Shown here: one piece after another, positions 19,944 through 45,067 of the stretch
Position numbering within the stretch: the first letter of the stretch is position 1
How the letters are laid out: the number at the start of each line of letters is the position of its first letter
Assembly: GCA_028874795.1 (NCBI GenBank)
Contig: JAPPHT010000067.1
Location: 1 to 51,624 of the forward strand
Origin: Chloroflexota bacterium
Lineage (GTDB): Bacteria; Chloroflexota; Dehalococcoidia; Lucifugimonadales; Australimonadaceae
Reading direction: 5' to 3'
DNA: 51,624 nt
Notes under the pieces: model-generated
Told to the model about the DNA's origin: nothing
Databases searched by the model: none
The model's input: only the letters and a program-made list of their open reading frames with translations
Translations under genes and position numbers: made by a program

Positions 19944-20378
19944 TCAGCGCAGCGGGTCTACGACGGTGAGGAAGGGGAAGCGGTAGAAACCTGTATCGCG
20001 GGTGCATATCCGGCTGATGCCGTGCTCCCTCATCAATACCGCCGTGTGCATGTCGTGTACGAAGTTGCCTCGGATGTCCGGGAGTTCCCGGGTGGTCTGC
20101 GCGAGAACTGCCTGGTGGCGTTCAGTCGGGCGTAGAACCGAAATAGCAGGGGATTCGAGCAACATCTGTAAGAAGAGTTGTGCCTCATCGATACGCCACG
20201 GAACCGGCAGGACGCGCGGGTGTGTACTGACCCGCATGAACTCATAGCAGACGCTCCATGTCAGATACGTCGGTGAAGGGCCGGTTCTGGCCTCGTTCAG
20301 CATCCGACGACATGTTTCATGAGCGTCGGCTCCCGGATCAATCGCGTAGAGGAGGATGTTCGTGTCGAAGACGAGCAC
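19944..20378 (-). CDS. vapC: PIN-domain ribonuclease toxin (VapC family)
   Basis: 144 aa. PIN acidic residues: Asp5 (VFDTNILLYAID), Glu46 (CYEFMRVS), Asp109 (FVHDMHTA) and Asp128 (TRDTGF), a full metal-binding set. VapC toxins cleave tRNA or rRNA. The gene's start is 1 bp from the end of the antitoxin gene, so it is co-translated. It converges on lhr with a 3-bp gap. Confidence 0.9.
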   Translation of the reverse strand: MLVFDTNILLYAIDPGADAHETCRRMLNEARTGPSPTYLTWSVCYEFMRVSTHPRVLPVPWRIDEAQLFLQMLLESPAISVLRPTERHQAVLAQTTRELPDIRGNFVHDMHTAVLMREHGISRICTRDTGFYRFPFLTVVDPLR

Positions 20379-20621
20379 TTACTCCTCTTCCTCCATAACC
20401 CGGTAGAGTTCGTCACGGTTGGCCACATCCACCAGGAACGACCCGCCCTTCAGGATCGGCAACGGGGGCAAGGTGTACTCCTTCTCTTCTTCAACGAGAG
20501 GGTCGTCCAGGATACGGCGGAGGCCGGCTTCCACCAGGGCCGAGATGGTCGTCGAACGGCGAGCGGCTTCTTCGCGAAGCCGCTGCATCACCGTATCGTC
20601 TATGTTGAGCGTGGTCTTCAT
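20379..20621 (-). CDS. vapB: ribbon-helix-helix antitoxin (VapB-like)
   Basis: 80 aa. The N-terminus MKTTLNIDDTVMQRLREEAA followed by STTISALVEAGLRRIL is a ribbon-helix-helix DNA-binding domain; the acidic C-terminus (ending MEEEE) should wrap the PIN toxin. I start at ATG 20621, not the in-frame 20657, because the promoter -10 box lies at 20634-20629, which makes the ATG the likely first codon of a leaderless mRNA. A 17-bp palindrome overlaps that promoter. Confidence 0.85.
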   Translation of the reverse strand: MKTTLNIDDTVMQRLREEAARRSTTISALVEAGLRRILDDPLVEEEKEYTLPPLPILKGGSFLVDVANRDELYRVMEEEE

Positions 20622-20628
20622 ATGGAAA

Positions 20629-20657
20629 ACCATACAGGCTGTATGGCTTTCCGTCAA
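20629..20657 (-). promoter_or_regulatory. vapBC promoter with overlapping palindromic operator
   Basis: Minus strand TTGACG (20657-20652), 17-bp spacer, TATGGT (20634-20629), then 7 nt to ATG 20621. The perfect palindrome CCATACAG-G-CTGTATGG (20630-20646) covers the -10 box and the spacer. It is an obvious site for VapB/VapBC autorepression. Confidence 0.75.
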
Positions 20658-20669
20658 CGCCCGCTGTGC

Positions 20670-21806
20670 CTAGTCCTTGTCGTCCAACTCCGGGTCGTCC
20701 CAGACGTAGTCCGGGTCCTCGAAGAGCCCGGCCGGCATGAGCGACGGAAGGCCGTTCTCCGCGAGGGCTGCCTCGAACTGCTCGCGCACCCAGGGGTCCT
20801 CCTCGATGAACGGCACCTCCTTGTTCAGCCCGCCGTCGTAGCCCATGAGCGCCTTGGGCGGGAAAACGCGCAGCTGGCGGTTCTGCGTGCCGCCGGGGTT
20901 GAGGTGCTGGTGGAACCAGTTGTTCGGCGGGACGAAGACGCTCGCGTCCGTCCACGGGCAGACGATCTTCTCGCCTCCCTCCGGGTACATGACAGCGAAG
21001 CCGCTGCCGGGCGAGACGCCTACGATGGTGACGCCGGGGCCGTGGCGGTGCGCGGCCCGGTAGCGCTGGGGCGGCAGCACCATCATGCCCGTGCGGATGG
21101 CGGAGTTGGGGAAGTTGATGCCGGCGCTGAATGCCCTCCGGTTCCGCCCTCCGTAGGCGCGAAGCTTGTCCCAGACGTTGAGGTCCGGGAAGAAGTTGGC
21201 GTGCCACTGCTGGGTCTCATGCTTCACCCCGCCGCGGTCCACCGTCTCCCGCACGGCGAAGGCTTCCGCGGAGAACGGGTTACCCTCGCTGCCGTACAGC
21301 TCGGTAGGGTCGACGAACGCGTTGTTGAAGAAAAACTCCTGGCGCGGCTGGATGCTCATCATCAGCGGCAGGTAGCTGACGTGGAGCGTCAGCGCCGGCT
21401 GGTCGCCGCGCGCGTTGCTCAACTGGTAGTAGTAGTTGGTCGGGATGCGGAAGAGGCTGCGCTTCTGCCACTCGAAGTTGATCTGCGGGTGGCCTTCCGC
21501 CCAGACGGTGGCGATCCCCTGCCCCTCGACGACGTACACGATCTCCTCGGCCGCCATGCGGAAGGGAGGGATGGTCTCGCCCGGCGGGATCTGCAGGACG
21601 TGCGCCTCCGTGACGCCCTGGTGGCCGACCAGGTTGAGCACGGCGCCGGGGCACCCGCGCAGGCTCCACCAGCCCAACTCCAGCTTCCGCAGGTCCTCGA
21701 CGAAGTAGCCGGTGAAGACCGGAACGTCCTGCGATACGAGCCAGCGGTCATAGGGAGACTGCCACCAGCTGTTGGTCGATCTCCTGTCAGTCGGCGCCGT
21801 GGTCAT
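20670..21806 (-). CDS. bicupin protein, gentisate-dioxygenase-like
   Basis: 378 aa from ATG 21806 with an ideal AAGGAGGACCGCG. There are two cupin barrels: the first around 75-135 (PPGETIPPFRMAAEEIVYVVEGQG), the second around 245-310 (YRAAHRHGPGVTIVGVSPGSG ... NNWFHQHLNPGG). His-x-His is intact only in the second barrel, while the first has FRMAAEE, so probably one metal site remains. Its layout resembles gentisate 1,2-dioxygenase-like proteins. It is the last gene behind the ABC permease and may process or sense the imported compound, which is inference. Confidence 0.75.
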   Translation of the reverse strand: MTTAPTDRRSTNSWWQSPYDRWLVSQDVPVFTGYFVEDLRKLELGWWSLRGCPGAVLNLVGHQGVTEAHVLQIPPGETIPPFRMAAEEIVYVVEGQGIATVWAEGHPQINFEWQKRSLFRIPTNYYYQLSNARGDQPALTLHVSYLPLMMSIQPRQEFFFNNAFVDPTELYGSEGNPFSAEAFAVRETVDRGGVKHETQQWHANFFPDLNVWDKLRAYGGRNRRAFSAGINFPNSAIRTGMMVLPPQRYRAAHRHGPGVTIVGVSPGSGFAVMYPEGGEKIVCPWTDASVFVPPNNWFHQHLNPGGTQNRQLRVFPPKALMGYDGGLNKEVPFIEEDPWVREQFEAALAENGLPSLMPAGLFEDPDYVWDDPELDDKD

Positions 21807-21854
21807 CGCGGTCCTCCTTCTGTGTTGTTCTGTGCTGCTGCGCGCGGGCGCGGT

Positions 21855-23666
21855 TCAGCGCATGCTGGCCGCCGCCTGGCCGCCGGTGGCCTGCCGCGGC
21901 CGCTGGGGTTCCCCGTCCTTCGACTGCACGTCCTGCCGGACGCCGATGCGCAGCCCGAACTGGCGGGCGACGAGCGCGAGGCCGAGGGTGAGGAACATGA
22001 TGATCAGCGTGATGATACCCGCTTCCTCGACGCGGTTGATGCCCGCCGACGCGCGCTCGAGCGCGAGCAGCGAGAGCGTGAGCGTATCCCGCGAGGCGAG
22101 CAGGACGATGCTGGCCGTGGTGGAGGCCGCGGAGATGAAGTTGAGCGCCCCGATCAGCACCATCGTCGGCATCAGGACGGGTATCACGATGCGGAAGTAG
22201 GTGCGGAACCACCCCGCGCCAGCGACGCGGCCGGCCTCCTCCATGTCCGCGCCTATCTGCACCATGATGCCCTTGAATACGTTGGTGCCCGTGGTGTTGC
22301 CGGAGATGATGACAACGAGGATGAGCGCCCAGATGGAGCCGTACAACCAGGAGAGGCCGGGCGTTCCCAGGAAGAGCATCAGCAGTCCCAACGACGAGAT
22401 GATGCCGGGGAACGCCGCCGATATCCAGATGATGGAGTCCAGGATGGAGCGCCCCCGCCACCGCGTGCGGACGATGAGATAGGCGATGACGGAGAAGAGC
22501 AGCGGGCTGCCGACGCCCGCCGTGACCGCAAGGATGAGGGTCGTGCGCGTCGCCTTGAAGAAGAGCGGGTCCGTGAGCACGTTGTACCAGTGATCGAACG
22601 TCCACGCGGGGACAGCGTTGAAGAAGCCTACCCGCGTCATGAAGCTGCCCATCACGATGATGACGAAAGGCAGAGCAGTGAGGAGGATGATGACGATCGA
22701 GATGGTCAGGAAGATGGGCCACTTCCACGCGCCAAGGTCGATGAGGCCGGGGCGGAACCGTCCGGTGATGGTGGTGTAGTGGCGCCGCCCGGTGATCCAG
22801 CGTTGCAGCGGGAATATGAAGCCGATGAGCACGAGGGTGATGGTGGCGAGGACGATCGCTTCGGCGTAGTCCGGTGGGATCTCGGACGTGGTCTGCCGGA
22901 AGATCAGCGTGGAGAAGACGTAGAAGCCGACGCGCGCGCCCAGCAGCTGCTCGGTCTCGAACCCGCTGAACACGCGCAGGATCTGCAGGGCGAAGACGAG
23001 GATGATGGGCGAGATCATGACCGGCAGCGTCACGCGGATGAGGGCGCTGACCTTGGACGCTCCGGAGACGCGCGCGGCTTCCTCCAGGGCGACGTCCATG
23101 TTGCGGAAAGCCGGGGTGAGCAGGATGACCTTGTAGGCGATGCCGTTGCCCATGAGGTTCGCCCAGACGATACCGGCGAGGCCGAAGATGTTGAACGGGC
23201 CTTCCTCGATGAACGGCAGCCTTTCAACGAACGTGTTGAGCAGCCCCACGTCCGGGTCCATCAGCATCATCCAGCCGATGGTGGTGGCGAGGCCGGGGAA
23301 CATGAACGCGACCCAGAACATGTACTCCATGCCGTACGTGAACGGGATGCGGGTCCGGGCGAGGATGAGGGCGATGGCGATGGCGATGGGGAAGCTGAAG
23401 ATGGCCCCGAGGAACCAGACGAGGAACGAGTTGCGGATCGACTCGAAGACGAGCGGCTCGTCCCACGCCTCGATCCAGTTGGAGATTCCCCATTCGCGGG
23501 GCGAGGCCAGTATCTCGGGAGAGACGTCGAAGCTCAGGACGAGCAGCAGGACCATCGGGTAGATGAGGTAGCTGCCCAGCGCCACGATCACGACGAACAT
23601 CACGATCGTGCCGGCTTCCGGCCCGCGCCAGCGGGCGGGCAATACCCGAGAGATCCCTGTCGTCAT
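21855..23666 (-). CDS. ABC transporter permease, two fused permease domains (ferric/thiamine-type)
   Basis: 603 aa with about 12 membrane helices. It carries two MetI-type permease units in one chain, each with its EAA loop: EEAARVSGASKVSALIRV in the first half and EEAGRVAGAGWFRTYFRI in the second. This fused form is typical of FbpB/ThiP-class importers. GAGGAGGAG precedes ATG 23666. The binding protein is encoded just upstream; no ATP-binding subunit is found anywhere near, so one must be supplied from elsewhere. The substrate is unknown. Confidence 0.92.
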   Translation of the reverse strand: MTTGISRVLPARWRGPEAGTIVMFVVIVALGSYLIYPMVLLLVLSFDVSPEILASPREWGISNWIEAWDEPLVFESIRNSFLVWFLGAIFSFPIAIAIALILARTRIPFTYGMEYMFWVAFMFPGLATTIGWMMLMDPDVGLLNTFVERLPFIEEGPFNIFGLAGIVWANLMGNGIAYKVILLTPAFRNMDVALEEAARVSGASKVSALIRVTLPVMISPIILVFALQILRVFSGFETEQLLGARVGFYVFSTLIFRQTTSEIPPDYAEAIVLATITLVLIGFIFPLQRWITGRRHYTTITGRFRPGLIDLGAWKWPIFLTISIVIILLTALPFVIIVMGSFMTRVGFFNAVPAWTFDHWYNVLTDPLFFKATRTTLILAVTAGVGSPLLFSVIAYLIVRTRWRGRSILDSIIWISAAFPGIISSLGLLMLFLGTPGLSWLYGSIWALILVVIISGNTTGTNVFKGIMVQIGADMEEAGRVAGAGWFRTYFRIVIPVLMPTMVLIGALNFISAASTTASIVLLASRDTLTLSLLALERASAGINRVEEAGIITLIIMFLTLGLALVARQFGLRIGVRQDVQSKDGEPQRPRQATGGQAAASMR

Positions 23667-23746
23667 CTCCTCCTCATCGCGCGCCGCCGTTCAGTCGCCC
23701 AGGACCGTCTTCAGCGGGCTGCGCCCATCCCGCCGCATGGGGTGGG

Positions 23747-23774
23747 GGAGGCCTCGGAACACTCCGTGGCCTCC
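23747..23774 (-). promoter_or_regulatory. intercistronic hairpin between binding-protein and permease genes
   Basis: GGAGGCC-A-CGGA-GTGT-TCCG-A-GGCCTCC on the minus strand: 11 pairs with one A/A mismatch and no T run. It is likely an mRNA-stabilising or partial-termination structure, which would give more binding protein than permease. Confidence 0.5.
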
Positions 23775-23789
23775 CTCCGTTTGCCGCGC

Positions 23790-25103
23790 CTAGCCGACGG
23801 CCAGGCCGCGCTCCGCGTAGATCTCCTGGAGCCTGGCGAGCGAGTCGTCGGTCGCCGTGGCGAACTCCTCGGAGCCCTGGTCGATCACGTTAATCTTCCC
23901 CTCACGCACCAACTGCGGGACCATCTGCACCTGTTGCCACTCGCGGTCAGGCACCCTGCCCTGCGGCACGTCCGAGCGGAGGCTCGGGGACGGCGACGGG
24001 TCGAGCGTGATCGTCTGGTAGATCTCCTGGCCCTCCTGCGAGTAATACCAGTTGTAGAAGAGCTGCTGGCACTTGGGGTGAGGCGGCTGGTCTATGGCGC
24101 TCAGCGTGCCTCGCACCTCGGTGGCGAGGCCCTCCTCCATGACGATGTGGTCCGTTATGGAGGCAACGGGCAGACCGAGCTCGATGAGCATGTGCGGCTC
24201 GCTGCCGCCGCCCCAGACGATGTGCCACTTGCCGCGCGCCAGCCCGTCCGCAAGTTCACGGTCGTTGTCGGAACCGACCGCGTCCATCTGCGAGTCGAAG
24301 TAGAGGCGGTCGAAGAACTCCGGGCCTAGGATGATCCAGAGCCTCGTCCGCGTCGTCGCCGCGCCGGAGCCTGCCTGTCCAACCGTGGCCATCTTGCCCG
24401 CCCACTTCGGGTCGAGCAGGTCCTCGTAGGAGGTGATGGCTGCGGCTTCCTCCGGACTCACGAGGTCCGTGTTGTAGAAGACGTCGATCAGGTTGGAGGA
24501 ACGCAGCGTGTCGGCGAGCGAGTACTTGTTATCGCGGTCGGTCCAGTAGACCTTGTCGTACAGGTACCAGTGTTCCGGAGTGCGGTTCAGGATGGTGGGA
24601 TCGATGATGAGAGGCTCAATGGGAGCGAGCGCCTCTGCCTGGCGCAACCGCTCCAGCGAGCTGGTGCCCACCTGGCTGATGTCCACCGTGTACCTGCCGC
24701 GGGAGCGCTCCGCGACGATGCGGTCAGCGTTCCTGCTGCCGCTGCCGGTGCTGGCGACAACGTTGATCTCGTAAGTGTCCTGGAACCACTGGAGCATGGG
24801 ACGCCCGACCGCGGAGTCGCTGCCGCCCATGGCGACGACCAGTTCGCCCTCCGCCTGGCAGTCGGCGACCAACTGCTGCCACTGCGCCTCGAAGGAAGCG
24901 TCTGGGGTGGCTGTCGGTGGCGGGGCCGGGGGCGGGGTAACGCCCGGCGGCACCGGTGTCGGCGTTGCGGTGGGCTCCGGTGGCGGTGGCGCCGTCGTCG
25001 GCGTGGGGGTCGGGTCAGTCCCGCATCCCGCCAGCATGGCCACTGCGGCCAGGGCCATCGCTACGATGGCCAGGAATCGTCTGTTGTTCGTTCGCCTGCG
25101 CAT
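23790..25103 (-). CDS. extracellular solute-binding lipoprotein of an ABC importer
   Basis: 437 aa. Signal peptide with lipobox LAGC (Cys27), then a Thr/Pro-rich tether to about residue 75, then a type-2 periplasmic binding fold (GELVVAMGGSDSAVGRPMLQ, ...DILL-type lobes with DPKWAGKMATV and SDNDRELADGLARGKW). It resembles the ferric/polyamine/thiamine group (SBP_bac_6/8). The start is ATG 25103 because GGGGAGG lies 9 nt upstream; the ATG at 25112 abuts that site. It is followed by a hairpin and the fused permease. The substrate is not predictable. Confidence 0.9.
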   Translation of the reverse strand: MRRRTNNRRFLAIVAMALAAVAMLAGCGTDPTPTPTTAPPPPEPTATPTPVPPGVTPPPAPPPTATPDASFEAQWQQLVADCQAEGELVVAMGGSDSAVGRPMLQWFQDTYEINVVASTGSGSRNADRIVAERSRGRYTVDISQVGTSSLERLRQAEALAPIEPLIIDPTILNRTPEHWYLYDKVYWTDRDNKYSLADTLRSSNLIDVFYNTDLVSPEEAAAITSYEDLLDPKWAGKMATVGQAGSGAATTRTRLWIILGPEFFDRLYFDSQMDAVGSDNDRELADGLARGKWHIVWGGGSEPHMLIELGLPVASITDHIVMEEGLATEVRGTLSAIDQPPHPKCQQLFYNWYYSQEGQEIYQTITLDPSPSPSLRSDVPQGRVPDREWQQVQMVPQLVREGKINVIDQGSEEFATATDDSLARLQEIYAERGLAVG

Positions 25104-34031: not shown

Positions 34032-35057
34032 ATGACCATCGGCTGGGGCATCGTCAGCACGGGGAGGCACCCGGACACCAAGATGGCGCCCGCCATCAGC
34101 GAGGCGGAGGACGCAACGCTCGCGGCCGTGATGAGCCGGGACATCGGGCGGGCTGAGGCGTTCACGCAGAAGCACGGCGCGGCCACGGCCTACGACGACC
34201 TCGATGCGCTGCTGCGCGACCCTGCCGTGGACGTGGTCTACATCGCGTCGCCGAACGCGCTGCATGCGGAGCAGACCGTCCGTGCCGCGCAGGCGGGCAA
34301 ACACGTGCTGGTCGAGAAGCCGATGGCGCTCTCCGTGGACGATGCCCAGCGGATGATCGACGCGTGCGATGCGGCCGGCGTGCGGCTCGGCGTCGGCTTC
34401 CACCTGCGTGCCCACGAGGGGCACCAGCGCCTGCGGGCGCTTGTCACTGAGGGTGCGGTCGGCAGGGTTGCCTTCGCCCAGGCGAGCTGGTGCCGGGGTA
34501 TCCGGGGCCAGGAGGCGCCACCGGCCCGCACTGGCCTGCAGGCGTGGTGGGACGATCCGTCGCTCATCGGCGCGGGCGCCTTCATGGCAACGGGTGTCCA
34601 CTGCGCCGACCTGCTCCGCTACGTCCTGGACGATGACGTGGCTGAGGTCTCCGCCGTGAGCGACGCGACGCCGGAGAAGCCCTTGGAGGAGTTGGTGACG
34701 CTGGCGCTGCGCTTCAGAAGCGGCGCCATCGCGACCCTGCTCACCGGGCGCCGCACGCCCGACTACGAGAACAACGACGTCATGGTCTACGGCACGCTCG
34801 GACGCGCGGGTCTGCGCTCCAGCATCGAGATGACGCAGGGAGGCGCGCTTGCAGTGCGCACTGATGCCCTGACCGAGGACGAGACCTACCTGGAGCACCC
34901 CTTTGCGCTCTACACGAAGCAGGTCCGGGCGTTCGACGCCGCGGTCGAGGGCAACGGGGAACCGCTCGCCACCGGCCTCGACGGCCTGCGCGTCGTCGAG
35001 ATCACGCTTGCGATGGTGGAGTCGGCGCGCACGGGATCGCGAGTGTCGCTGGGCTAG
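34032..35057 (+). CDS. Gfo/Idh/MocA-family oxidoreductase
   Basis: 341 aa. N-terminal Rossmann fold beginning GWGIVSTG, VYIASPNALHAEQ, and the catalytic Lys motif VEKPMAL (about 94-101), followed by the mixed alpha/beta substrate domain. This family uses NAD(P) to oxidise or reduce sugars, inositols and related polyols. The first strand has Ser-Thr where many members have Ala-x-Gly, but the fold is clear. TAGGAGG is 8 nt before the ATG. The substrate cannot be inferred. Confidence 0.9.
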   Translation: MTIGWGIVSTGRHPDTKMAPAISEAEDATLAAVMSRDIGRAEAFTQKHGAATAYDDLDALLRDPAVDVVYIASPNALHAEQTVRAAQAGKHVLVEKPMALSVDDAQRMIDACDAAGVRLGVGFHLRAHEGHQRLRALVTEGAVGRVAFAQASWCRGIRGQEAPPARTGLQAWWDDPSLIGAGAFMATGVHCADLLRYVLDDDVAEVSAVSDATPEKPLEELVTLALRFRSGAIATLLTGRRTPDYENNDVMVYGTLGRAGLRSSIEMTQGGALAVRTDALTEDETYLEHPFALYTKQVRAFDAAVEGNGEPLATGLDGLRVVEITLAMVESARTGSRVSLG

Positions 35058-35074: not shown

Positions 35075-36907
35075 ATGCCGATACAGGACAGGGACTACTA
35101 CCGCGAGCGTCGGCGTAACTCCCCGGGTGGGTCCGGCGGACACGGTTGCTGCTGGCTCGTTCTTCTGCTGCTCATCGCGGCTATCGGCGGCGGGTACTAC
35201 TGGTATACGCAATACGGGCTGCCAGTCGAGCTCGAGTTTCTGTCCATCCCAACGCCCACACCCCGGGCCGTGCAGCAAGGCGCGCTAACTCCAACTCCTG
35301 ACACCTCGTCTGTCCCGCCTACGTCGACACCGTTCCCCTGCGCCGACCCGACGCCCAGGCCTGATGCCCCAAACGAAATGCCAACGCCGGTGCTGCTGTC
35401 GACACCTGTTCCCGCCGTGACGCCAACGCCTGACTGGCCGCCCGCGCCGCTTACCGACGCCTGGCGCGAATGGGCGAGCGGCTGGAGCAGACAGCAGGTG
35501 GACGCCGCCCTTGCCGAAAGCCTGGCAGTCTTCGACGCAGGGCTGGACGATTTGGAAGACATGCCACAGATCGAAGCGTGCCGCCGCGCTGCTGAGTTCG
35601 AGATGCGCCTCGAGGTAGCCGAGTTCCTCGTGGATGCGCAAGGGCTCGAACGCGAGGCCGTCCCCGGACAAGGTGCCGCCGCTCTCTCCTGGACGATCTG
35701 GCTGCGCCACCAACGGAGTCTGTTCGTCGAGGCAGTGCAGAACCATGCGCCGGTTGCAGAGTGCCGGAGCATCCTTGCAACGCCAACGCCAACGCCAACG
35801 CCAACGGCTACGGCTACTCCTGCGCCGCTTCTACCGACGCCCACACTCGGTCCGCCAACGCCTACGCCGCTGCCGCCCTGTCCCACGGCAACGCCGACCC
35901 CGACTCCCACCGGAACGCCGATAGCGACTGCTACCCCGCCCCCCACCTCTACACCCCGCCCCACGGCGACGCCTACGCCCGTGTCTGAGCAGCAACTTAC
36001 TGCGGGCGAGGTGCAGGAGTTGCGCGTGTATGCGCTCGAACTCATCAACAACGACCGGGCCGCTCATGGCCTGCCGCCCGTTGTCCTTGGCCTGAACGAA
36101 GCCGCCCAACTGCACGCCGAGGACATGCTCAACCACGACTATTTCGGGCACTGGTGGGCGGATGGACGGAAGCCCTACATGGTCTATTCGGAGACCGGGG
36201 GAAGGAGTTACGTCTCCGAGAACGCCGCATCTGACGGCTGGACCGATGAGCGGTGGGAGTCATCCAACTGCGACAGTTTCCTCGTCAACTGCCAGGTCAC
36301 AGGCCCTCGTGATGCCATCAGGGGGGCCCAATGGGACATGACGTACGACGATGCTCACGCGAACTGGGGGCATCGTGACAACATCCTGCGCGCGAGCCAT
36401 CGGGCCGTGAACATCGGCATCGCTTTCAACGGCAGGCGCGTGACGTTCGTCCAGCATTTCGAGGGCGGCGCCGCGGAAGCTCATGCCTTACCCACGCTCT
36501 CGCGTGACGGTACGCTTTCCCTGTCCGTGGCCAAGCGCGAGGCCGGAGTCAGAGTGGGACCGGTGGTCTCCATCTACTATGACCCGCTTCCAACGCCCAA
36601 GACTCCCGCACAGATCGACAGGCTTCATTCCTATTGTGTTGGCGGAGGATTCACGACGTCGTGCGGCGACCCCGTTGCGCGCATACTCGAACCTCCCGGG
36701 CCCGGTTACTTCTACTCGAATCTCGATGCCAATGAGGTGGTCGCCGATAGCTGGAACGAAACAGGTGACACGTTCAGTTTGACTGCCTCCCTGAGCGACC
36801 TTGCCACCAGACCAGGCGTGTATACCGTGAGTGTGTGGCGTGATAGCGCAGGGAGCATATTGGTGGAGCATCTTGTCGCGTTGTCCGTAACTCAACCAGC
36901 GCGGTGA
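35075..36907 (+). CDS. membrane-anchored CAP/SCP-domain protein with Thr-Pro linkers
   Basis: 610 aa. A short basic cytosolic N-terminus is followed by a membrane helix at about 25-46. Next come a first Thr/Pro linker (60-125), a helical domain (about 127-230, DAWREWASGWSRQQVDAAL), and a second Thr/Pro linker (232-305). The CAP/SCP domain lies at about 310-475, with its His-rich pocket (LHAEDMLNHDYFGHW, WGHRDNILRASH). A beta-rich C-terminal domain follows. CAP domains bind sterols or lipids or act in cell-envelope biology. It starts 17 bp after the oxidoreductase gene. Confidence 0.82.
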   Translation: MPIQDRDYYRERRRNSPGGSGGHGCCWLVLLLLIAAIGGGYYWYTQYGLPVELEFLSIPTPTPRAVQQGALTPTPDTSSVPPTSTPFPCADPTPRPDAPNEMPTPVLLSTPVPAVTPTPDWPPAPLTDAWREWASGWSRQQVDAALAESLAVFDAGLDDLEDMPQIEACRRAAEFEMRLEVAEFLVDAQGLEREAVPGQGAAALSWTIWLRHQRSLFVEAVQNHAPVAECRSILATPTPTPTPTATATPAPLLPTPTLGPPTPTPLPPCPTATPTPTPTGTPIATATPPPTSTPRPTATPTPVSEQQLTAGEVQELRVYALELINNDRAAHGLPPVVLGLNEAAQLHAEDMLNHDYFGHWWADGRKPYMVYSETGGRSYVSENAASDGWTDERWESSNCDSFLVNCQVTGPRDAIRGAQWDMTYDDAHANWGHRDNILRASHRAVNIGIAFNGRRVTFVQHFEGGAAEAHALPTLSRDGTLSLSVAKREAGVRVGPVVSIYYDPLPTPKTPAQIDRLHSYCVGGGFTTSCGDPVARILEPPGPGYFYSNLDANEVVADSWNETGDTFSLTASLSDLATRPGVYTVSVWRDSAGSILVEHLVALSVTQPAR

Positions 36908-37019: not shown

Positions 37020-39578
37020 ATGACACTGAGCGGGATGCCATCGATCACCTGTTCCCGCTGCGGCAGGGAGTTTCCCCCTCCGCTCTGGGCGGCGCACGCC
37101 CACAGCGAGGAGCGCGCGCGCTGCGTCGAACCGGAGTGCGAGGAGTTCGCGTCCGGCTATGCCATCAGGGGGATGAACCCGCTCTGCGGCGCCCACCTCG
37201 TTGAACGCCATCGTCGCGACCACGAGGTTCGATTTGTGGACGGCGGCGTCTGCAGCATCTGCAATGGTGAGGGACAGCTATCGTCTGAGCGCGCGGGTGG
37301 GGGAACGGAGCGCTGCTCCCTGTGCGAGGGGTCCGGCTATCTGGACGAGGAGACGCTGGCCGGCGAGCGCCAGCGGATGGAAGAGGAGCAGATCGCCGAA
37401 TACCGCCGCCGGTCAGAGATGCGCCGCGAGATAGAGCGTGTCGCACGCCGCCAGCCGGAAGTGGAAGCGCTGAACCGCCGGCGCCGGGAAGAGATCGAGC
37501 GCGCGAGGGCGTTTGAGGAGGCCCGTCTCCAGGCATTGGGATCCCGAAGGGGTGGCGGCGCACGAGGTGGCGGCGGCCCAATCGACTTCGGCCCCGCTCG
37601 CGGTGGCCGTGGCGGCTTCTTTCGCAGGCACTGCCGCATCATAGCGGCGCTTCTGATCCTGGGGGCGCTTGCCGTCGCGGCCGGAGGAGCAGCCGTGACC
37701 TTCCTGGGGACCGATGAAGAGCCCCCAGCGCCGACGCCAACCCCGGAGGCTGCTCCTTCCGCTACTCCCACGCCTATGCCCACGGTCACGCCGACTGCCG
37801 CGCAACCCACGGCAACGCCTACCGTGGCGCCGACTCCAACGCCCACCGCCGTACCCACTGCGACGCCACCTCCTCCTGCGACGCCGGACGCCGCCCCCAC
37901 GGCAACCCCCGTCCCGGAGGACACTCCCACGCCGACCCCGGTGCCCATCGATCCCGAGGCGCTTGCTGCGCTCGTGCGCCCGAGCGTCGTCAAGGTGAAC
38001 ACGGACGCGGCCGCCGGTTCCGGTGTCATCGTGGAGGTTGATGCGCTCGGCAGGGCGGTGGTCCTGACCAACGATCATGTCGTTGGGAGTGATCCCGGCA
38101 TCGTCCGTGTGACCGCCGACAACGGCAGGTCGTACGACGCCACGGTACTCGGCTCCGACAGCGCGAGGGACCTCGCGGCGCTGAGCGTCTGTTGTTCCGA
38201 GTCGTTCCGCGCGGTGGTGCTGAGCGAAAGGACGCCGGCGGTGGGCGCCGCTGTGTTTGCGCTGGGCTACCCGCTGGACAGCGACGCGGCGGTGCTGACG
38301 AGCGGCTCCGTCTCCGGCGTGAACTACGACGAGTTCCTGCGGCGGTGGGAACTGCAGACCGACGCGCCGTTGAACGTCGGCAACAGCGGTGGAGCGCTCA
38401 TCGGAACGGACGGGACGGTTGTGGGCATCACCGCGTTCGCGGTGCGGGAGCTGGGTACGGGAGCGGCGGTCGAGGGGACCGGATTCGCGGTCAGCTCGGA
38501 GACGGTGCTGTCGGTGTTGTCCGCGCTCAAGGCAGGCGCCCGCGTAGAGGTCCCCGGCGACGGGTCGAGGCCCGAGAATGGCCTGGTCGGCTCCTTCGGG
38601 CCGGCCAACGGTGACCTGCCGCATGACAGCGACGAGTTCATCGTGGAGTTCGGAGCGGGGGTCTCGGTCGGTGACTTCGTCGCCACCGCGACCTTCAACA
38701 ATCCGTACCCTGCGGTGTTGAGCGGCTGGGACTACGGGTTCCTGTTCCGGGACGCGGGGCAGTTCAACTTCCACGCGGTCGTCGTGGAGAACCGCAACGA
38801 CGGCGTGCCGATGTGGTTCCACTACCTGCGCGACGGAGCAGGCGACGGACTGCTGCTCGGGAGCGGCAGGGCGTCCGGTCTGTGGCCGGACTCGGGAGGC
38901 CTGAACACCCTGCGCCTCATCGCCATCGGCCCCCAGGGCTGGCTCTTCATCAACGGCCGCGCGGTCGGGACGCTGGACCTGAGCGTCGGTCCGACCGGGG
39001 GAGACGTCTCGGTGGTCACGGGCTACCACATCGAGAACAAGGTCGCCGGGCAAACGACGCGCTTCCTGGGGTTCGAGGTCTCCCAGCCGGAATCGCTGGG
39101 TACGGACTCCGGCTCGCTGGAGCAGGCAGAGGACGGGGCCATCAAGTTGGCCCGCATCGGCTCGGAGGCAGGCGACTTCATGGCTGTCGCAACGTTCACG
39201 AACCCGGGGGCCAACGTCGGTTCGTGGGACTACGGGTTCGTCTTCAGAGAGTCCGGGCCGAACGTTTTCAGTGCCGTTTACGTCGACAGCGATGAGCAAT
39301 GGAACCACCTGCTGGGGACGGGCGGGAGACAGCCCGCGTTCACGAGGTCAGGGGACCTGCGGCTGAATACGGAGGCCGGAGAGCGGAATGCCCTGGTGCT
39401 GCTGGCGATCGGCGACGTGGGCCTGTTCTACGTGAACGGTGTCCTCGTGCAGGAGTTGGAACTGAGCGAGGGTGAGGCGGACGGCGCCGTCGCTGTTGCA
39501 TCCGGGTTCTCCGAAGAGACCCGGACGCCGGGACAGACGGTCGGTTACGCAGGGTTCGCCGTGTGGGCGCTGGACTGA
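37020..39578 (+). CDS. membrane-spanning trypsin-like serine protease with cytosolic zinc-ribbon and two lectin-like repeats
   Basis: 852 aa. The cytosolic part has Cys pairs C11/C14, C36/C41, and a DnaJ-like zinc ribbon C78/C81-C99/C102 (CSICNGEG, CSLCEGSG), then a charged coiled coil (110-175). A membrane helix (206-229) and a Thr/Pro linker (235-312) follow. The HtrA-like protease domain has the complete triad His353 (TNDHVVG), Asp384 (ARDLAAL) and Ser456 (VGNSGGAL). No PDZ is seen; instead two tandem beta-sandwich repeats (about 530-690 and 705-852), each with a WDYGF(L/V)FR motif and an (L/Y)(F/V)NG(R/V) strand. A zinc-ribbon sensor inside and a protease outside is unusual. Confidence 0.8.
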   Translation: MTLSGMPSITCSRCGREFPPPLWAAHAHSEERARCVEPECEEFASGYAIRGMNPLCGAHLVERHRRDHEVRFVDGGVCSICNGEGQLSSERAGGGTERCSLCEGSGYLDEETLAGERQRMEEEQIAEYRRRSEMRREIERVARRQPEVEALNRRRREEIERARAFEEARLQALGSRRGGGARGGGGPIDFGPARGGRGGFFRRHCRIIAALLILGALAVAAGGAAVTFLGTDEEPPAPTPTPEAAPSATPTPMPTVTPTAAQPTATPTVAPTPTPTAVPTATPPPPATPDAAPTATPVPEDTPTPTPVPIDPEALAALVRPSVVKVNTDAAAGSGVIVEVDALGRAVVLTNDHVVGSDPGIVRVTADNGRSYDATVLGSDSARDLAALSVCCSESFRAVVLSERTPAVGAAVFALGYPLDSDAAVLTSGSVSGVNYDEFLRRWELQTDAPLNVGNSGGALIGTDGTVVGITAFAVRELGTGAAVEGTGFAVSSETVLSVLSALKAGARVEVPGDGSRPENGLVGSFGPANGDLPHDSDEFIVEFGAGVSVGDFVATATFNNPYPAVLSGWDYGFLFRDAGQFNFHAVVVENRNDGVPMWFHYLRDGAGDGLLLGSGRASGLWPDSGGLNTLRLIAIGPQGWLFINGRAVGTLDLSVGPTGGDVSVVTGYHIENKVAGQTTRFLGFEVSQPESLGTDSGSLEQAEDGAIKLARIGSEAGDFMAVATFTNPGANVGSWDYGFVFRESGPNVFSAVYVDSDEQWNHLLGTGGRQPAFTRSGDLRLNTEAGERNALVLLAIGDVGLFYVNGVLVQELELSEGEADGAVAVASGFSEETRTPGQTVGYAGFAVWALD

Positions 39579-39655: not shown

Positions 39656-40069
39656 CTAGTGGCCGCCGCAGCCGCAACCTCCGGCACCGCATCCGCACCC
39701 GCCGCTGCCACAGCCGCAGCCCTGGCTGGTGGCGATGTTCGGGTTCTCGATGACGAACCCGCTGCGCATCAGCCCTTCCGAGTAGTCTATGGAAGCGCCG
39801 TGCAGGAGCGGGGCGCTGTCCTCGTCCGCGATCACGCGGATGCCGGACTCGTAGAGTACGAGATCGTCCTCGGCGAGCGTGTCTTCCAGAGAAAGCATGT
39901 ACTGCGCGCCGTGCCCATTCGGGACAACGATGACGCGCAACGCAGCGTCGGGTTGCCCTTCCTCGGCCAGTACCTCCGCCAGCTTCTCCGCCGCGAGGTC
40001 GGTCACAATGATGGTGGGCTCGCCGGTCTCGGGGCCTGCTGCGCCAGTGTTGGGGATCGTGTTCGTCAT
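39656..40069 (-). CDS. A-type iron-sulfur carrier-like protein (HesB/IscA fold) with Gly-Cys tail
   Basis: 137 aa from ATG 40069 (GAGGAG upstream). The HesB/IscA fold is recognisable (IIVTDLAAEKLAEVLAEEG, LRVIVVP, ...YSEGLMRSGFVIENPN). The usual first ligand Cys (GCSGFQY) is missing: the site reads NGHGAQY. The C-terminus instead has a run of Gly-Cys-Gly-Cys units with six Cys, beyond the normal single CGC. It may bind a cluster or metal in a different way, or be a NfuA/HesB-like carrier of another metal. A TATACT box (40143-40138) is a plausible -10. Confidence 0.75.
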   Translation of the reverse strand: MTNTIPNTGAAGPETGEPTIIVTDLAAEKLAEVLAEEGQPDAALRVIVVPNGHGAQYMLSLEDTLAEDDLVLYESGIRVIADEDSAPLLHGASIDYSEGLMRSGFVIENPNIATSQGCGCGSGGCGCGAGGCGCGGH

Positions 40070-40214
40070 ACGTCTGCTCCTCGTTGGGGGACTTCTTCTG
40101 TGCAAGGCTAGCAGCGCCCCGCTCGCGGGTCAAGGCGAGTATAGCGCGTCCATCCCGCAGCACCGATCGTAGCACGAGTGGTCCCGATCGGCATCATCTG
40201 GCTCCATCTACTGG

Positions 40215-43867: not shown

Positions 43868-45067
43868 CTAGAAGGAGAGGTCCAATTCGACAACGCTGCC
43901 GGGGGCGTGCTCGAACACAGCCGTTGTCGAGAAGCGTCTGCAGTCCAACCAGAACTCAACCGTTGCCCCGACATAGTAGTTGGAAGGGACGGAGACACTG
44001 AGCACGTATCGGCCGGCCTCCGATATCCGTTCCCCGATCCAGTCGTCCAGCTGTCCTTCCTTGCTCACCCTGGCGTAGACGGTCGAGTCCGTCGGCGCAG
44101 GTGCGCCGTCCACCGTTATCGCGCCGTGGAAGATCAACGGTATGGGGGTCACCACACTTTCGCGGGCCCCGTGGTGGCGGTGATGCCACGACTCGACGTG
44201 GATGCGCCCTGAGCGCAGGAGCGGGAGGGCGATGTCTGCGATCTGCGGAGCGTCGGCGGCGTAGACCTCGCCGGCGTTGCCGATCTCCCGGAACCGCAGC
44301 AGGTCTCGTGGCATGCGTATGCCCTGGACCTCACCACTGCCATTCAGCAGGACGGCTCCATCGGCCGCGGAGTCATCGGGCACGTCGATGCGGAAGTAGG
44401 GGTATCCGGTCCCCGATGCAACATGACCGATCACCTGTGTGCCCCTCTCGTCCAGGTGTTCGTAGGGCTTGTGCTGAAGCAGCGTCAGCCGCTCACCGAA
44501 CGCTGCGCCATCCCCGGCGACCGCGAGGTAGTCGTAGCTGCGCGCCGGCTCGACGAGCGGTTTGAGCAGAGCGGTCCCGGTGTCGTCGTCCCGACCGGTG
44601 ACGCACGCCTGGGCCTGCGTGCCGTCCCAGAGTTCCATGTTCACCACAGGCGCGCCTCTCAGGGCATGGGAGTGAGTCAGTATCTCCCCGCTTTCGCTGA
44701 TGATGACGCCGGTCCAGGTGCCCGGGCCTCCCCAGAAGGGCCAACCCCAGGCGAGCTCGCTGGACAACCTCACAACAGCTTTGTGCGGCAGGTCAGTGGG
44801 CCTCGGAGCAGGCGTCGGCGGGGGTGTCGGCGAGGGTTCTGGGGTAGCCGTTGGGGTCGGGCTGGGCGTCGGCGTGGCCGTTGGCGTGGGTGTGGGCGTC
44901 GGCGTGGCCGTAGGCGTGGGTGTGGCCGTAGGCGAGGGGGTAGGCGTAGGTATCGGCGTTGCGGTCGGCGTCGGCGTGGGCCTGGGAGTCGGCGCGGGGG
45001 TCGGCGTCGCCTGTGCGCAGGCGGCGAGAGCCAGGAGCGTCAGCACGAGGACGGCGGTCGTTCGCAC
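43868..45067 (-). CDS. lipoprotein with Thr-Pro tract and degenerate trypsin-like domain
   Basis: 399 aa from GTG 45067 (CGGAG upstream). Signal with lipobox ALAAC (Cys17), then about 75 residues of Thr-Pro repeats (20-95). A chymotrypsin-like fold follows: the His strand is kept ([10 protein letters not shown]), but the Asp strand reads [10 protein letters not shown] where D-L-A-L-L-K is expected, and the Ser loop reads AADGAVLLN where G-N-S-G-G-P-L-L-N is expected. Two triad positions are lost, so it is a pseudo-protease. The C-terminal ~100 residues form a separate beta domain. A cell-surface binding or scaffold role is likely. Confidence 0.75.
44806..45006. repeat. low-complexity hexamer tract encoding the Thr-Pro linker
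   Basis: On the plus strand, many imperfect copies of GGCGTCGGCGTGG / GGCGTGGGTGTG. It is read on the minus strand as alternating Thr and Pro codons. Such tracts are prone to length change by slippage. Confidence 0.8.

Follow-up and report, generated by a model that had tools for sequence, protein, structure and literature searches.

The window analysed here, a stretch of 51,624 nucleotides from a Chloroflexota bacterium, encodes an HtrA-type protease in which two β-sandwich repeats take the place of the PDZ domain and to which a cytosolic, predicted three-zinc module is joined across the membrane. The gene (37020–39578, + strand; ATG start, TGA stop) specifies 852 amino acids in the order cytosolic module, helix, transmembrane segment, stalk, S1C protease, twin sandwich, and this architecture is not a product of chance. 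We give roughly even weight to the reading that the protein is a modular, bitopic HtrA/S1C surface protease, which the twin domains aim and which a cytosolic partner- or peptide-binding module holds or regulates.

The cytosolic module occupies residues 8–110 (37041–37349), as delimited by the invariant columns of 12 aligned rows. It contains a B-box-like part (residues 35–68; 37122–37223) and a DnaJ/anti-TRAP/UvrA-type zinc hairpin (residues 78–107; 37251–37340). Next comes a charged, coiled-coil-like helical segment with a Gly-rich linker (residues 111–203; 37350–37628), of which the charged helix runs from residue 111 to about 170; an AlphaFold model of the module places a helix at residues 110–134. 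The membrane helix (residues 207–228; 37638–37703) was located by hydropathy, the peak being a 19-mer that starts at residue 207 (mean 2.43). FFRRHCR lies before it and TDEEPP after it, and by the positive-inside rule this change from positive to negative charge would put the N-terminus inside and the C-terminus outside the cell. The Thr-Pro-Ala stalk (residues 231–313; 37710–37958), recognised by its composition, is 62% Pro+Thr over the 82 residues 231–312. The membrane helix and Thr-Pro stalk of the original prediction are therefore both present. Judging by codon substitutions, the gene is under purifying selection: against the orthologue in genome G002, all parts are constrained (pN/pS 0.28–0.45), and the module (0.30) is as constrained as the protease (0.28). 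Values are higher against G003 and G005, with a maximum of 1.03 in the membrane helix (23 codons) and 0.59–0.62 in repeat 2.

The protease domain (residues 319–512; 37974–38555) was assigned from Pfam, NCBIfam, PDB and the sequence itself. A Pfam search of the whole protein matched Trypsin_2 at residues 333–470 (E = 2.9e-24), and beyond this and the related Trypsin model no family rose above the cut-off. PDB sequence matches centred on residues 332–510, with DegS ranking first. The expected catalytic triad is complete, with H353, D384 and S456 lying in TNDHV, RDLAAL and GNSGG, respectively, and the domain has the trypsin-like character and His/Asp/Ser triad of S1C catalytic domains. Among NCBIfam HtrA/Deg models, however, no full-length match exceeded the cut-off; the best, degP_htrA_DO, reached 108.5 vs. 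416.2 bits and covered the catalytic part only. Pfam detected no PDZ domain in the window protein at E ≤ 1, and the model of the C-terminus was entirely sandwich. As a positive control, the same type of search was run on the genome's ordinary HtrA (G000:C84, L140) and recovered Trypsin_2 plus PDZ_2 (1.5e-14). A PDZ domain concealed in the C-terminus was rejected on these three results, in agreement with the earlier proposal that the repeats replace it. Because the C-terminal PDZ domain is absent, we class the protein as an S1C variant rather than a classic HtrA, and since the genome holds a separate PDZ-containing HtrA, housekeeping need not rest on the stalked protease.

In the protease-domain alignment, GNSGG is kept in 30 of 31 rows, window included (one gene counted twice). 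The G002 orthologue (L052:2364–4925, − strand), which is the closest to the window protein (77% over protease and repeats), reads GNAGG instead, its catalytic Ser codon having changed from AGC to GCC by two base changes. Catalysis has thus presumably been lost in G002 while the rest was kept, leaving an apparent pseudoprotease. The extracytoplasmic part contains no cysteines other than the vicinal pair C391–C392 (38190–38195), 7 residues past the catalytic D384, and 16 of the 31 rows carry such a pair (one gene appears twice among those lacking it). Motifs could be read in 19 of 30 HtrA-type loci; the pair occurs in 6 of these 19, which look like the stalked kind, and is missing from the other 13, including the PDZ-containing HtrA of the same genome. 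Such a pair next to the catalytic Asp marks a stalked HtrA subfamily. The window also encodes a second Trypsin_2 protein (43868–45067, − strand; E = 4.9e-9), with a short signal-like start, a Thr-Pro stalk and two tandem relatives on contig C90; a clear GNSGG was not seen in its translation, and it may be inactive.

The C-terminus consists of two repeats of ~160 residues, C1 (residues 523–682; 38586–39065) and C2 (residues 689–852; 39084–39575), which are 39% identical to each other and were defined by repeat comparison, modelling, fold matches and the repeat alignment. AlphaFold predicted two β-sandwiches (8 aligned rows; pLDDT 78.9, pTM 0.80). Repeat 2 resembled the CBM66 structure 4azz (VIA Z 17.6, 2.4 Å over 145 residues) and repeat 1 the sponge galectin 4agg (VIA Z 13.9), the VIA match rows falling mainly on repeat 2. 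Other solved folds among the matches were the thrombospondin C-terminal domain, GH32 sandwiches, galectins, and galactocerebrosidase, in what we take to be its lectin-like domain; Foldseek returned galectins and pairs of laminin LG domains. The predicted model therefore has the ConA-like/laminin-G/galectin/CBM66 β-sandwich fold, as the original prediction had suggested in proposing a laminin-G/concanavalin-type fold. At the level of sequence families, the window row matched neither PF06439 nor PF13385, and of the 14 rows searched PF06439 matched 2 (best 0.021) and PF13385 one (0.098). Weak sandwich-profile matches across the phylum (E above about 1e-12) were taken to reflect the general fold and left uncounted.

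From 89 extracted repeats, 63 were retained after removing duplicates from overlapping loci, with a mean identity of 33%. All 63 have Arg577/743, Trp570/736 and Trp599/761 occur in 59 each and Asn629/790 in 60, and N645/806 is likewise conserved, within the range of 59–61 of 63. That the same polar and aromatic set recurs in both repeats suggests two like sites. The sugar binding in the original prediction is a putative function read from the fold, and sandwich folds of this type often bind no sugar. The repeat was found in 20 of 59 relatives, mostly behind a similar protease that has no inside module, so an HtrA with sandwiches in place of PDZ is common in the order. It also lies beside a Ser/Thr protein kinase domain in G674 (L099:1135–3507, − strand) and after a zinc ribbon in G771, placed as a receptor-type ectodomain would be.

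Turning to the cytosolic side, C11, C14, H26, H28, C35, C40, C56, H59, C78, C81 and C99 are invariant in an alignment of the window module with 11 relatives, and C102 is present in all 12 rows except one that ends early. These residues would suffice for three zinc sites (C11, C14, H26, H28; C35, C40, C56, H59; and C78, C81, C99, C102). Each predicted site falls in a different part of the module: the first in a short CxxC...HxH finger, the second in the B-box-like part and the third in the DnaJ/UvrA-type hairpin. The original description of this end as a ‘zinc ribbon’ was too simple for 12 Cys/His residues and three predicted sites, and a plain zinc ribbon was rejected, as the 12 module rows gave only weak, sub-threshold matches to zinc-ribbon families. 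The DnaJ-type Cys pairs also noted there are real for the last pairs (residues 78–102), a predicted zinc hairpin, but not for the rest of the Cys/His set. DnaJ_CXXCXGXG was matched by 9 of the 12 rows (best 1.3e-6), with the window row below the cut-off (14.8 vs. 32.7 bits), and PDB sequence matches of the hairpin were to the Q antiterminator, UvrA and DnaJ hairpins. The window protein has two of the four CxxCxGxG motifs of the DnaJ cysteine-rich domain, and no J domain by Pfam.

For the middle part, B-boxes headed the fold matches (6imq, PML B1, Z 5.1; 6o5k, TRIM28, Z 4.6; Foldseek E = 0.19). However, of the 26 families that the 12 module rows hit at E ≤ 1, the 25 listed do not include zf-B_box (PF00643), and a zf-B_box search of the genome gave one match, elsewhere, without picking the window protein. 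Given the Foldseek value and the lack of a Pfam match, we call this part B-box-like rather than a B-box. The AlphaFold model of the module was weak (7 aligned rows; pLDDT 69.9, with the hairpin below 50). The idea that the module passes on an internal redox or zinc signal fared less well: its Cys/His set looks structural, with three full predicted sites, and the sole spare Cys inside the cell is C205, next to the membrane helix. An outside vicinal disulfide switch at C391–C392 would be a better redox lead.

Among the genomes searched, the full form of the protein was found in one genus only: it lies on a single ORF in G000 (the window's own genome), G001, G002, G003 and G005, whereas in G004 its parts are divided between contig ends. 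The protease with its twin sandwich, in contrast, is common through the order (SAR202, Chloroflexota). The module is present in all six genus members among the 16 family genomes searched. Across 250 order genomes, 11 had any module match, two of them weak; strong matches (E of 1e-40 or better) lay at 13 places in 9 genomes. Six of these were on the protease with twin sandwich, four on CAP proteins (assigned by Pfam for two, by tblastn for G021 and by eye for G441), one on an HExxH protein (assigned by motif), and two were truncated or frame-broken. Within the genus, the module is also carried by a CAP protein of the same genome (contig C69) and the HExxH protein of G001; outside it, by CAP-type proteins of G007, G021 and G441, with a weaker match in G038. 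The module is thus a re-used part on several surface proteins. In a tree, the modules on the protease proteins of G000, G002, G003, G004 and G005 formed one clade (support 99/99). Both module proteins of G001 additionally contain a J domain (PF00226; E = 6.5e-12 and 5.9e-12) with HPD intact. The two proteins (L057:6168–9242, − strand; L058:4788–8099, − strand) span the membrane once and face the surface, and in each the J domain belongs to the cytosolic part and is nested between two CxxCxGxG motifs. Two further module copies of the window genome (G000:C13:1269–2852 and G000:C52; L063, L065) share 87% DNA identity; the first is cut short or has lost its frame and the second shows the other defect, and they represent either decaying duplicates or a strain mixture in the assembly.

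Among 350 phylum genomes, the 29 module matches besides the own genome covered the hairpin only (model positions 66–117). Most of these, in ORFs of about 1000 residues, were taken for UvrA on the basis of length and PDB matches, and a few lay in shorter ORFs. A search of 294 class genomes added two matches, hairpin-only or nearly so, and occurrence of the module outside the order was rejected on these grounds. A module scan of genome contigs gave 6 loci, all from Chloroflexi/Dehalococcoidia/SAR202. The Thr-Pro stalk inflated the matches to the full protein and to its CAP neighbour, which occurred in most genomes, and these matches were excluded as relatives. A literature search, by title or abstract start, found no description of the present architecture. 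One genus member, MPMJ bin16, is tabulated as a SAR202 bin in a study of the sponge Aplysina aerophoba (PMC5649159). The window bacterium is probably a marine organism with a sponge setting.

The gene order around the protease is itself conserved. It is headed by a Gfo/Idh/MocA oxidoreductase (34032–35057, + strand), identified by Pfam and locus comparison, followed by a membrane-anchored CAP-domain protein (35075–36907, + strand) with an MPIQDRDYYR head, a transmembrane segment, a stalk and a DAWREWA helical domain. In G003 and G005, the order is oxidoreductase, MPIQDRDYYR protein, protease with twin repeats, and full module form; the window locus is without the middle copy. In G002, the oxidoreductase is followed by a fused gene and then the full form. 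In the fused gene, the MPIQDRDYYR head (61% identity to the window head over 223 residues) runs directly into a protease with twin repeats, which is 62% identical to the G003 middle gene; at this position the window, G003 and G005 carry the CAP tail. Thus, heads and effectors swap at this locus. Convergent with the protease gene lies an IscA/HesB-type Fe-S protein (39656–40105, − strand) with a Gly-Cys repeat tail, CGCGSGGCGCG. Farther upstream, a 1336-residue ORF (20319–24329, + strand) had no Pfam match at E ≤ 0.001 and may be a shadow ORF.

In the mechanism that we favor, the twin galectin/CBM66/laminin-G-type sandwiches would act outside as ligand binders in place of PDZ, bringing the protease to its ligand or substrate at the end of a flexible Thr-Pro stalk; candidate ligands are glycans or glycoproteins of the surface or of a host. 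Inside, the three-zinc module and charged helix would bind a cytosolic protein or an unfolded peptide, and this binding, given zinc in the predicted sites, would position, oligomerise or regulate the surface protein and so might control proteolysis from within. In G001, the J domain of the same region would recruit DnaK. A stronger version of this coupling, to which we assign a small probability, is chaperone-coupled surface display: the cytosolic zinc/J-type module would hook DnaK or another partner onto single-span effectors, so that the folding state inside sets their amount or activity outside, and the protease would add a thiol switch at C391–C392.

The main competitor, which we consider possible but clearly the less probable reading, is a variant envelope quality-control HtrA of the DegS/HtrA kind, whose twin domains sense misfolded or cell-wall material and whose cytosolic part is an anchor and assembly aid without signalling. 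Its protease domain is nearest DegS/DegP in PDB and NCBIfam, and the module-less protease with twin sandwich is widespread in the order, which makes its core function older than the module. However, the genome has a separate PDZ-containing HtrA, the conserved module recurs on proteins other than proteases, and the catalytic Ser has been lost in G002. This last change, with the repeats still under constraint, instead fits a protein whose principal role is that of an adhesin or receptor, with sponge matrix or cell-wall glycans as its targets; its protease would be secondary and on its way to becoming a pseudoprotease, and its module would couple binding to the interior. Repeats that accompany a kinase domain in one genome and a zinc ribbon in another, and the sponge-derived genus member, point the same way. 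We nevertheless regard this as unlikely, as GNSGG persists in 30 of the 31 protease rows (window included; one gene counted twice) and the protease with twin repeats also occurs in genomes outside the genus.

Less probable still is that the module serves only as a co-translational or secretion handle, tethering DnaK or a nascent chain to the membrane during export of stalked proteins and having no later role. The J domain and DnaJ-type hairpin in both G001 module proteins would suit such a handle, as would a module common to unrelated exported domains (CAP, HExxH and protease). The J domain, however, is absent from the window protein and, by Pfam and translations, from other genus members, and many similar stalked proteins have no module at all.

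The aimed and internally held surface protease that we prefer would be a variant of a kind already known by analogy. With HtrA/Deg proteins (MEROPS S1C; DegS and the B. subtilis-type membrane HtrA), it shares the S1C domain, the H/D/S triad and GNSGG and, with the membrane forms, a single membrane helix and probably a protease on the outside. Unlike them, it lacks PDZ and has twin ConA-like domains, a long Thr-Pro stalk, a predicted three-zinc cytosolic module and a vicinal CC next to the catalytic Asp. Links to membrane peptidases are reported for prokaryotic B-box/AN1/LIM treble-clef domains (a 2011 study by Burroughs, Iyer and Aravind is said to describe them). Like these, the window module gives a membrane-anchored peptidase a treble-clef-like part, predicted to bind zinc, inside the cell, but it is not zf-B_box by Pfam and has a CxxC...HxH finger and a DnaJ-type hairpin besides, and its peptidase is S1C rather than rhomboid-type. 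It shares a hairpin of paired CxxCxGxG motifs with DnaJ/Hsp40 and anti-TRAP, and the G001 proteins have the J domain as well; unlike DnaJ, the window module has two such motifs rather than four and no J domain and is membrane-tethered. Finally, the modelled repeats are like CBM66, galectins, laminin-G and the thrombospondin C-terminal domain in their β-sandwich (Z 13.7–17.6 among the matches listed), but differ from these in sequence (3–14% identity among the matches listed, no sequence-family match).

On this reading, the surface effectors of a bacterial lineage that has a sponge-derived member are assembled from interchangeable parts, with one zinc module inside and several enzymes outside. 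Close relatives carry the same inside module on other surface proteins, which suggests a swappable part for inside-to-outside coupling. Should chaperones or nascent chains turn out to be bound by the module, this would offer a route for cytosolic control of surface proteolysis. The family of proteases with twin lectin-like folds across SAR202 is a second, unnamed, PDZ-less type of HtrA, whose targets may be glycosylated material in sponges and in sea water.
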